Below are positions 14,565 through 17,796 of a stretch of 64,000 nucleotides of DNA, in pieces. Origin of the DNA: Alphaproteobacteria bacterium (GTDB lineage: Bacteria > Pseudomonadota > Alphaproteobacteria > Rs-D84); NCBI GenBank assembly GCA_017629245.1, contig JAGBXO010000002.1, positions 62,001-126,000 on the forward strand. The letters run 5' to 3'. Position 1 is the first letter of the stretch, and every line of letters starts with the position of its first letter. Position numbers and translations under genes: made by a program. The notes under the pieces were generated by a model. It did no database searches. It was not told the origin of the DNA and saw nothing but the letters and a program-made list of their open reading frames with translations.

Positions 14565-14593
14565 ATTATAGGACAAGTATATTTATTTGTCAA
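14565..14593 (-). promoter_or_regulatory. Full-consensus sigma-70 promoter
   Basis: On the minus strand TTGACA (14593-14588), exactly 17 bases, TATAAT (14570-14565). Both hexamers match the consensus perfectly; the gene start is at 14536. No other promoter in the window is this good by eye. Confidence 0.85.
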
Positions 14594-14660
14594 TCATATA
14601 TAATTAATTTTGTTTCTGTTCTTGATTTTTTTCTTTATTCATTGTACTCTGGTGGGTGTA

Positions 14661-14693
14661 ATGAAACAAACAAAAGTAATTATTATTAAATAA
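14661..14693 (+). CDS. Putative ileS leader peptide MKQTKVIIIK
   Basis: A 10-codon frame ending in TAA, with three consecutive isoleucine codons ATT ATT ATT (14679-14687) after a valine codon. GGTGGG at 14651-14656 could serve as its ribosome site. It lies 70 bases before the isoleucyl-tRNA synthetase gene and 26 bases before a terminator-like hairpin. A run of codons for the very amino acid charged by the downstream enzyme is the signature of trp-type attenuation. Function inferred; no homologue search was possible. Confidence 0.65.
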   Translation: MKQTKVIIIK

Positions 14694-14700
14694 TGGACAC

Positions 14701-14741
14701 TGCGCTTTGGCGGTGGCTGGGGCGCATGGGCGCCCATTTTT
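14701..14741 (+). promoter_or_regulatory. Putative transcription attenuator of ileS
   Basis: GGGCGC (14720-14725), loop ATGG, GCGCCC (14730-14735) then ATTTTT forms a terminator. TGCGC at 14701-14705 is perfectly complementary to GCGCA at 14722-14726, so it can form an alternative hairpin that destroys the terminator. With a ribosome stalled at the isoleucine codons 14701-14705 stays free; with one at the leader stop (14691) it is likely covered. The geometry therefore fits isoleucine-starvation control. Confidence 0.6.
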
Positions 14742-14763
14742 AATATAAAAACAGGATAAAAAA

Positions 14764-17700
14764 ATGGCATATAAAAAGACAGATGCGCGTGCAGACTTTA
14801 CTGCCCTGGAACAAGAAATGTTAACCAAATGGGCAAACGAAGATACATTTCATAAATCATTAAAACAAACAAAACAAGGCGAACCTTTTTCGTTTTATGA
14901 TGGTCCTCCCTTTGGTAATGGTTTGCCACACTGGGGGCATTTGGGTGTAACTGTTGTCAAAGATATGGTTTCGCGTTTTCAAACAATGACTGGTCGCTAT
15001 GTAAATCGTGAGCTGGGTTGGGATTGTCATGGTTTGCCAGCCGAAAATTCTGTTGAAAAAAAGCAAGGTCGTCCGGCCAAAGATATTGTTGCAAATGATG
15101 GCATTGCTGCTTTTTGTGATATGTGTCGTACGGACGTTATGACATATACCAAAGAATGGGAGAGATTTATTGCCCGTATGGGTCGCTGGGTCGATGTTGG
15201 CGATGGTTATGGTTATAAAACAATGAACAAAGACTATATGGAATCTATGCTGTGGACATTAAAGTCGCTGTATGAAAAAGGTCTGTTGTACAAAGATTAC
15301 AGTGTTAATCCATATGACTGGGTAAATGGTACGGTTGTATCAAATTCTGAGGCGTCCAGTGATTATCGCGAAATTGTTGATGATGCAGTGACTGTTTGGT
15401 TTGAATTAGAAAATGGTGATCGTGCAATCGCATGGACAACAACACCATGGACATTGCCTGCGAATAGTGCGTTGGCTGTGAATCCAAATATGGAATACCT
15501 GCGCATGCAGGATAACGACGGCAGTGTTTATATCGTTGCAAAAACCAGATTAAAGGCGTATGAAAAACAATTCGCAAACGCAACAGAAATTGAATGTATC
15601 AAGGGTTCTGATTTGGTTGGCAAACATTATACACCACTATTCCCATATTATTCAGGGCAATCAGACTTATTATTCCAAGTTATACCAGCAGATTATGTAT
15701 CTGATTCAGACGGTACTGGTATCGTTCATATCGCACCTGCGTACGGAGCCGAAGACTTTTGGGCAGCAAAAAATATTGATCCAAAATTCCCTGTTTTGTT
15801 GAATGTTGACGATTATGGAAACTTTGATGATACTGTTATTGACTTTGCAGGTCAAAATATCTTTGTTGCAACACCAGCGATAATGGATTGCTTAAAACAA
15901 AATGGAAGACTGGTCAAAAAGGAACAATACAAACACAGTTATCCATTTGGTGACCGCAGTAAAGAAAAACTGATCCAGCGTGCTACGGATTCATGGTATA
16001 TCGACGTGCCAAAAATCAAAGATAAATTATTGGCGAATAATGCACGTGTAAACTGGACATCGGCGGGCGAACGTTTCCGCATGTGGATAGAAGGCGCGCG
16101 CCCATGGTCGATTTCACGTAACCGTTTCTGGGGCATGCCATTGCCAATTTGGGAAAAGGATGGCGAATTCAAAGTATTCGGTTCAATTGCAGAACTGGAA
16201 GAATTCTTTGGCGTAAAGATTGACGACTTGCATCGTCCAACACTGGATAAACTGACGCGCGACGGTTGGACACGTATCCCAGACGTTTTAGATTGTTGGG
16301 TTGAAAGTGGATCTATGCCATGGGCATCACTGCATTATCCGTTTGAAAATGTTGAAAAATTCAATGCGACATTCCCAGCAGATTATATTATCGAAGGTCA
16401 AGACCAAACGCGTGGTTGGTTCTATGCGCTGATGGTGTTGGCAACCGCATTGTTTGACCAGCCTGCATTTATGACTGTATCTGCAAACGGCATGATTGTA
16501 GATGAAAACAAAAAGAAGTTTTCTAAATCATTAAGAAACTATGTTGACCCATCAGAACAGATTGAACAATATGGTGCAGATAGCATACGTTTATTTATCT
16601 TGGGTTCGAACTTTATGAAGGCAGAACCTGTACCTGTTGATAAAGAAGGCAAGGTCTTTATTGAATCAACAAAAACAATTCTGACACCTCTGTGGAATGC
16701 GTATCACTTCTTTACATTATATGCAAATGCAGGCAATGTGACAGCGCATGAAATCAGTAATCCAACGAACTCTTTGGACAAATATATCTTGTCAGAATTA
16801 AATGTTTTAACAGACGTTGTTCGTAATTCGTTGAATGAATATAAACCAGATGTTGCAATCAAAGAATTTGTTCGATTTTTAGATATACTGAACAACTGGT
16901 ATATCAGACGCGGGCGCGCACGTTTCTGGGACGAAGAACAAGATGCATTTGATACATTATATACGATATTAACGCGTTTATGCCGTATATTGGCACCTTT
17001 TGCACCATTCGTATCTGAATACATTTATACGAATTTAACAGGCGATGAATCTGTACATTTAACATTGTTCCCAGAATCAGAAAATTCAGAAAATACGGAC
17101 AAAAAAATTGTTGATGATATGCGTCGTGTTCAAATGATTGTATCTGTTGGAAAACAATTACGCGAACAATATAAGTTACGTAATCGTCTGCCATTAAATT
17201 CATTGACAATTGCGGGCGTAAATATGCCTGAATATGCCGACATTATCAAAGATGAACTGAACGTAAAATCTGTTGTATTCAATGAAACATTTGATGATAC
17301 GGCAGACAGTTTTGTTTATCTAATTACACCAAAGATTGGTGCACGTCTGGGTGGTGCGTTAAAAGATATAATTCCATCTGTAAAACGTGGCGAATATGAA
17401 ATTGTTGGTGACAAATTATTGGCATCTGGTCATGAATTAAACGCAGACGAATTTGAAAGCCGTTTAACAATCAAAGATGGTGTTACCGGCGCTGCATTGC
17501 CAGACAATACAGCTGTTGTCGTATTAGATACAGAATTAAACGCAGAACTGATTGCCGAGGGTTTGGCAAATGATGCATTGCGATTTATCCAAGATACACG
17601 CAAGGCAGCAGGTTTGGATGTTTCTGACAGAATCGTTTTGACATATTCAGCTGACCCAGCACTGGCGATTGCAATTGAACAGCACAAAAAACGCATTATG

Positions 17701-17796
17701 CGTGATGCACTGATTGTTGAAATGGTAAATGGTGATGGCGAATACACAACCGATATAGAAGGATACAACCTGAGTATTTCTGTTAACAAGGTATAA
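14764..17796 (+). CDS. ileS: Isoleucyl-tRNA synthetase, type 2 (eukaryote-like)
   Basis: A 1010-aa class I synthetase that attaches isoleucine to tRNA-Ile. The HIGH motif is GNGLPHWGHL (about residue 57) and the KMSKS loop is KKFSKSLRNY (about residue 585), with F in place of M. WDCHGLP, AWTTTPWTLPAN (editing domain, about residue 225) and GQDQTRGWFY are typical. The C-terminus lacks the cysteine zinc-binding tail of E. coli-type IleRS and instead has the anticodon/junction region of the second type found in eukaryotes and in many Rickettsiales-like bacteria; this type is generally tolerant of mupirocin. It is preceded by the putative attenuator at 14661-14741 and followed closely by a small gene and nth. 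Confidence 0.93.
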   Translation: MAYKKTDARADFTALEQEMLTKWANEDTFHKSLKQTKQGEPFSFYDGPPFGNGLPHWGHLGVTVVKDMVSRFQTMTGRYVNRELGWDCHGLPAENSVEKKQGRPAKDIVANDGIAAFCDMCRTDVMTYTKEWERFIARMGRWVDVGDGYGYKTMNKDYMESMLWTLKSLYEKGLLYKDYSVNPYDWVNGTVVSNSEASSDYREIVDDAVTVWFELENGDRAIAWTTTPWTLPANSALAVNPNMEYLRMQDNDGSVYIVAKTRLKAYEKQFANATEIECIKGSDLVGKHYTPLFPYYSGQSDLLFQVIPADYVSDSDGTGIVHIAPAYGAEDFWAAKNIDPKFPVLLNVDDYGNFDDTVIDFAGQNIFVATPAIMDCLKQNGRLVKKEQYKHSYPFGDRSKEKLIQRATDSWYIDVPKIKDKLLANNARVNWTSAGERFRMWIEGARPWSISRNRFWGMPLPIWEKDGEFKVFGSIAELEEFFGVKIDDLHRPTLDKLTRDGWTRIPDVLDCWVESGSMPWASLHYPFENVEKFNATFPADYIIEGQDQTRGWFYALMVLATALFDQPAFMTVSANGMIVDENKKKFSKSLRNYVDPSEQIEQYGADSIRLFILGSNFMKAEPVPVDKEGKVFIESTKTILTPLWNAYHFFTLYANAGNVTAHEISNPTNSLDKYILSELNVLTDVVRNSLNEYKPDVAIKEFVRFLDILNNWYIRRGRARFWDEEQDAFDTLYTILTRLCRILAPFAPFVSEYIYTNLTGDESVHLTLFPESENSENTDKKIVDDMRRVQMIVSVGKQLREQYKLRNRLPLNSLTIAGVNMPEYADIIKDELNVKSVVFNETFDDTADSFVYLITPKIGARLGGALKDIIPSVKRGEYEIVGDKLLASGHELNADEFESRLTIKDGVTGAALPDNTAVVVLDTELNAELIAEGLANDALRFIQDTRKAAGLDVSDRIVLTYSADPALAIAIEQHKKRIMRDALIVEMVNGDGEYTTDIEGYNLSISVNKV

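Follow-up and report, generated by a model that had tools for sequence, protein, structure and literature searches.

A candidate ribosome-mediated attenuator with isoleucine codons upstream of ileS in a family of uncultured Alphaproteobacteria

Background

In enteric bacteria the attenuators of the ilvBN and ilvGMEDA operons combine a terminator with a preceding leader peptide that contains Ile, Val and Leu codons, and in Escherichia coli a leader peptide rich in the cognate codon (pheM) controls the aminoacyl-tRNA synthetase (aaRS) operon pheST by termination. Among the Alphaproteobacteria, the trpLE(G) attenuator of Sinorhizobium meliloti is ribosome-dependent, is transcribed from the ATG of its leader and relies on mutually exclusive antiterminator and terminator structures (PMC7298713), and in Caulobacter crescentus a translated small ORF stands in front of the aaRS gene trpS (PMC4117421). 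Control of ileS at the RNA level in response to tRNA-Ile charging is described for the T-boxes of Actinobacteria (PMC1262725).

Here we analyse the region upstream of ileS in a stretch of 64,000 nucleotides (the window) from a genome labelled Alphaproteobacteria bacterium. This genome comprises 934,506 bases and is 98% complete; its named relatives, with 70–89% IleRS identity, are mostly ruminant-gut MAGs carrying the same label. We propose, with a probability of about 0.88, that the region is a ribosome-mediated transcription attenuator which would tune ileS to the supply of charged tRNA-Ile.

Results

Organisation and distribution of the leader

The features discussed below lie within the window as follows:

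14622–14627, + strand: -35-like TTGATT of the leader promoter, at a homologous position across relatives, with a 17-nt spacer
14645–14650, + strand: -10-like TACTCT, weak here (3/6; TATAAA or TAAAAT in relatives), ending 10 nt before the leader ATG
14661–14693, + strand: leader peptide ORF, MKQTKVIIIK-stop
14679–14687, + strand: ATT ATT ATT, Ile codons at which sensing is proposed to occur
14698–14715, + strand: putative protector hairpin, 14698–14703 with 14710–14715, 6 bp, -9.8 kcal/mol
14701–14726, + strand: putative antiterminator hairpin, 14701–14711 with 14716–14726, 11 bp, -15.9 kcal/mol
14720–14741, + strand: predicted intrinsic terminator, 14720–14725 with 14730–14735, 6 bp, -11.6 kcal/mol, plus T-run
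14764–17796, + strand: ileS, isoleucyl-tRNA synthetase, 1010 aa

The ileS product matches TIGR00392 with 763 bits against a cut-off of 621, and its strong matches to MupA and MupB profiles are consistent with the type 2 IleRS call made in the original prediction. That prediction had proposed the frame MKQTKVIIIK with three ATT codons, a GGGCGC/GCGCCC terminator followed by a T-run, and a competing pairing of TGCGC (14701–14705) with GCGCA (14722–14726), all of which are present at these positions. A perfect TTGACA-17-TATAAT promoter on the minus strand (14565–14593) is directed opposite to ileS and precedes a small minus-strand ORF.

We compared the oriented ileS upstream regions of the 142 genomes of the same genus in which this region is readable. 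The whole arrangement of leader ORF, GCGC arm, GGGGCGC arm and terminator is present upstream of ileS in 140 of these, at near-constant spacing (8–10 nt from the stop codon to the GCGC arm in 137/140 leaders), whereas the remaining two lack it and carry a tRNA gene a short distance before ileS. A covariance model matched 165 of the 201 genomes of the order; the matches listed all belong to the window's family and are nearly always single in their genome. They include 20 of the 27 genomes of the family outside the genus, representing 10 other genera, each with an ileS match within approximately 3 kb downstream. In four cases the distance between leader and ileS leaves room for another gene; in one of these the intervening gene resembles a GNAT acetyltransferase, and the attenuator would then control both. 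The element was not found in the ileS upstream regions of 20 relatives from the same order or class outside the family. A genome of another family of the order has a possible leader of a different kind upstream of ileS, MFQINQEIIFRIPVWGN, ending in a CCCCGTTTGGGG hairpin resembling that of the thrS leaders described below.

The leader ORF and its isoleucine codons

Across the genus the leader ORF spans 8–11 codons, typically M-x4-I-I-I-I-K/R-stop, and contains 3–5 Ile codons in 140 of the 142 genomes. The four codons preceding the last sense codon encode Ile in 139, 140, 139 and 135 of the 140 leaders respectively, counting back from codon -2 relative to the stop, and differ almost exclusively among ATT, ATC and ATA (codon -2, for example, is ATT in 89, ATA in 48 and ATC in 2). 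Since the changes are nearly all synonymous, it is isoleucine that is conserved and not the nucleotide string. In most relatives the run comprises four Ile codons (ATA ATT ATT ATT/ATA), the first usually being ATA; in the window the corresponding sequence is GTA ATT ATT ATT. The final sense codon is mostly AAA or AGA, with GAA, GGA, CGA and CAA also found among the 140, and is often GAA or GGA elsewhere in the family. The residue encoded directly behind the run thus varies between Lys, Arg, Glu, Gly and Gln while the Ile codons stay, which argues for specificity for Ile. Conservation of the Ile codons amid varying leader sequence was what the original prediction had proposed to look for in relatives.

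Promoter and probable leaderless start

The interval between the -10-like box and the leader ATG is 6–10 nt in 95 of the 100 genomes without an adjacent tRNA gene, with a mode of 7 nt (50/100). Given the usual spacing, this places the predicted transcript start at the ATG or a few bases from it. Promoter scores of the genus set exceed those of shuffled sequences by a modest margin only. With the -10-like box at the distance given, the leader mRNA is probably leaderless, as for trpL in Sinorhizobium: the S. meliloti rnTrpL transcript begins at the trpL ATG (PMC7298713), and C. crescentus has 375 leaderless mRNAs (PMC4117421). A tRNA gene ends at most 60 nt upstream of the leader ATG in 39 of the 140 genomes, its 3' end being mostly 9–20 nt away. 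According to ARAGORN these adjacent tRNAs are almost all tRNA-Thr(CGT), standing in place of the promoter, and in such genomes tRNA processing probably frees the leader.

Hairpins and covariation

The terminator sequence is GGGCGC-ATGG-GCGCCC (14720–14735, GC pairs 6/6) followed by ATTTTT (14736–14741), so that the T-run in the window is short, at 5 T. A hairpin followed by a T-run is present in the 140 aligned leaders, with the terminator paired in 89.1% of cells, some rows being misaligned. Terminator-like sites in the 1-kb stretch numbered 6 compared to 0.5 expected.

The competing pairing of the original prediction exists but is longer than the 5 bp proposed: the lone pairing of 14701–14705 with 14722–14726 is superseded by an 11-bp hairpin (14701–14711 with 14716–14726), which RNAalifold selects unprompted. 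Its positions are paired in 93.9% of cells, compared to 31–57% for slid versions of the same pairing, and 5 of its 11 pairs have changed on both sides compared to 1.3 in shuffles, a value reached by none of 500 shuffles (86 distinct sequences). The pair 14701–14726 taken alone shows no covariation, and the GCGC core is largely invariant, making it uninformative for or against pairing. The protector is paired in 83.6% of cells, with moderate covariation support, weaker than that of the antiterminator. A 10-bp hairpin in the minimum free energy fold (14640–14663) was dropped because it lies mostly upstream of the expected transcript start.

Several coordinated changes involve the arm shared between antiterminator and terminator. 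In genomes L014, L017 and L024 all three arms depart jointly from GCGC: the antiterminator 5' arm reads GCAC, the shared arm GTGC and the 3' arm of the terminator GCAC. These genomes form one clade, and perhaps represent a single event. The distant L124 has ACGC, GCGT and ACGC across the three arms, an independent coordinated change, while in L010 and L011 the shared arm has changed along with the 3' arm of the terminator, and in L237 the 5' arm (GCCCC) is entirely different yet retains pairing with the shared arm. Compensatory changes in both hairpins, which the original prediction had listed as supporting evidence, are thus found. In all 140 genomes the antiterminator is predicted to be more stable than the protector alone and than the terminator alone.

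Proposed mechanism and ribosome geometry

From these features we infer translation of the leader, ribosome stalling, termination and a response to isoleucine, as follows. RNA polymerase would begin no more than a few bases from the leader ATG, giving a leaderless or near-leaderless 5' end on which a ribosome would load. When Ile-tRNA is plentiful the ribosome would reach the stop codon (14691) and cover the 5' arm of the antiterminator, so that the terminator (14720–14735) would form and transcription stop at about 14741. With no ribosome, protector and terminator would form and transcription would terminate too. When Ile-tRNA is scarce the ribosome would stall on the Ile codons, block the protector and leave 14701 onward free; the 11-bp antiterminator would then take 14716–14726, preventing the terminator from forming and allowing ileS to be transcribed. 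The attenuation reading of the original prediction gains comparative support, and to it are added a protector that would make termination the ribosome-free default and a leader ORF that is probably leaderless; an Ile stall would, in this scheme, lead to readthrough.

An equilibrium model agrees with part of this scheme. Its default fold is protector plus terminator, suggesting that termination follows when the leader is not translated. Once the ribosome edge reaches or passes 14702 the antiterminator is lost and the terminator forms, giving a modelled termination probability of 1.00 when the stop codon is in the A site (edge at about 14703). The antiterminator wins only with edges at 14699–14701 (0.69–0.87). 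Judged by the footprint of the bacterial ribosome, a stall with the last Ile codon in the A site would nominally put the edge at about 14697, and the modelled switching window therefore lies 2–4 nt further downstream. Switching by an Ile stall would need either about 2 nt of additional steric hindrance, as from a wider footprint, or kinetic folding. The model favours antitermination in 51 of 140 genomes at best. Over all 140, the modelled antiterminator probability is highest when the edge lies 9–10 nt beyond the first base of the stop codon, once more immediately before the stop position. The matching order and spacing lend support to the classical logic of attenuation, though they do not prove at which codon the ribosome would stall.

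Conserved and candidate leaders of other aaRS genes

Upstream of thrS in the window genome lies a leader ORF, MNSFKSFFTTTTTTPLGV, that contains successive Thr codons and leads into a CCCC-loop-GGGG hairpin. Nearly all genomes of the genus in which the region upstream of thrS is readable have such a leader, as do two other families of the order; the CCCC/GGGG hairpin is kept while the loops change. Candidate cognate leaders, seen in this one genome, also precede serS (MTTKFSFFSRTSSPLGE), hisS (MLDKNYILFVFHHAQAGEY) and trpS (MLRKICIFSDSKCWRVVAD), and each begins shortly downstream of a -10-like box (serS and hisS were identified from their sequence). No comparable leader was recognised for valS, leuS or pheS of this genome.

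We see an even chance that this bacterial group controls ileS and thrS, and probably serS, hisS and trpS, each by its own leaderless leader peptide with cognate codons. Such a system would parallel the Gram-positive T-box regulon but work through leader peptides. It would have two architectures: an antiterminator/terminator pair for ileS, and for thrS and serS a GC-rich hairpin that overlaps the run of codons. Hairpins of the form CCCC-RTT(N)-GGGG were considered as a marker of such leaders. The window genome contains 25 of these compared to 3 of the reversed pattern, mostly followed by T-runs; they appear to be mostly generic, favoured terminators, and were therefore rejected as a leader marker.

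Discussion

Alternative explanations

The features upstream of ileS could be accounted for in other ways, the most serious being that the ORF and terminator are real but that an RNA-binding protein (e.g. IleRS itself) or the general rate of translation makes the decision, the Ile codons being incidental. The hairpin sequences themselves are strongly conserved beyond their pairings (GCGCTTTGGC, GGCTGGGGCGC), which could mean a protein binding site, and the switch in the equilibrium model does not fall exactly at the Ile stall. However, each of the GC-palindromic arms needs two partners, which alone is enough to restrict change, and Ile identity survives synonymous changes while the flanking codons vary. 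The thrS leader in the same genomes carries Thr codons instead, which shows that the codon matches the gene. We therefore consider control by protein or translation rate unlikely.

It is also conceivable that the terminator is constitutive, allowing a fixed basal readthrough only, and that the ORF is a spurious product of AT-rich sequence. Runs of ATT are easily found in an AT-rich genome and short hairpins of this kind are common terminators, but chance would hardly maintain the frame, codons, spacing and covarying antiterminator in 140 of 142 genomes and in 10 other genera, making this explanation highly improbable. Least credible, to the point of being negligible, is a T-box-like RNA or riboswitch reading tRNA-Ile directly. 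While ileS is a T-box target in Actinobacteria (PMC1262725), the leader here, at about 85 nt, is too small for a Stem I, and its codons lie in an ORF that looks translated. A search of the leader against Rfam gave no family at the gathering threshold and chance-level scores in a relaxed search. A T-box identity was rejected on size and on this result; neither a Stem I with specifier loop nor a T-box bulge was found. We thus retain ribosome-mediated attenuation as the most probable explanation for this leader.

Isoleucine supply

No ilvC gene was detected in the window genome (98% complete), whereas the same search was positive in 14 of 14 controls. The absence of this one enzyme suggests that the bacterium probably imports isoleucine, in which case the charging of isoleucine would be a sensible point of control.

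Comparison with known systems

The attenuator is real, old and functional-looking, and probably belongs to a known class of mechanism, ribosome-mediated attenuation, to which the gene appears to be new. A literature search on ileS leader peptides or attenuation returned only the actinobacterial T-boxes and unrelated papers, and ileS is not named in the available text of two screens for attenuators or leader genes (PMC2965389, PMC4833913). As far as could be found, a leader-peptide attenuator on ileS has not been reported before. These reduced alphaproteobacteria, probably importing isoleucine, may have moved attenuation from biosynthesis operons to tRNA charging, as the conserved thrS leader suggests. 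Lopatovskaya et al., cited in PMC4833913, reportedly made a comparative study of aaRS attenuators in 2010, which could hold related cases, and priority is for this reason not certain.

The enteric ilvBN and ilvGMEDA attenuators are multivalent and control biosynthetic operons, whereas the element described here uses Ile codons only and lies on ileS. The pheST attenuator of E. coli differs in its Phe codons, its target genes, its normal 5' UTR and its gammaproteobacterial host. In S. meliloti, trpLE(G) attenuation senses Trp through a 14-aa peptide and acts on a biosynthetic gene, the sRNA and peptide having additional roles in trans (PMC7298713). The C. crescentus leader precedes a different aaRS gene, and antiterminator logic is not described for it in the available text (PMC4117421). 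In the ileS T-boxes of Actinobacteria, the tRNA binds the RNA directly and translation initiation is controlled, with no leader peptide (PMC1262725). Set beside these systems, the present element would add ileS to the genes controlled by leader peptides, through an attenuator that is compact (about 80 nt), probably leaderless and deeply conserved, and would assign a regulator to an essential gene in approximately 160 uncultured gut species.
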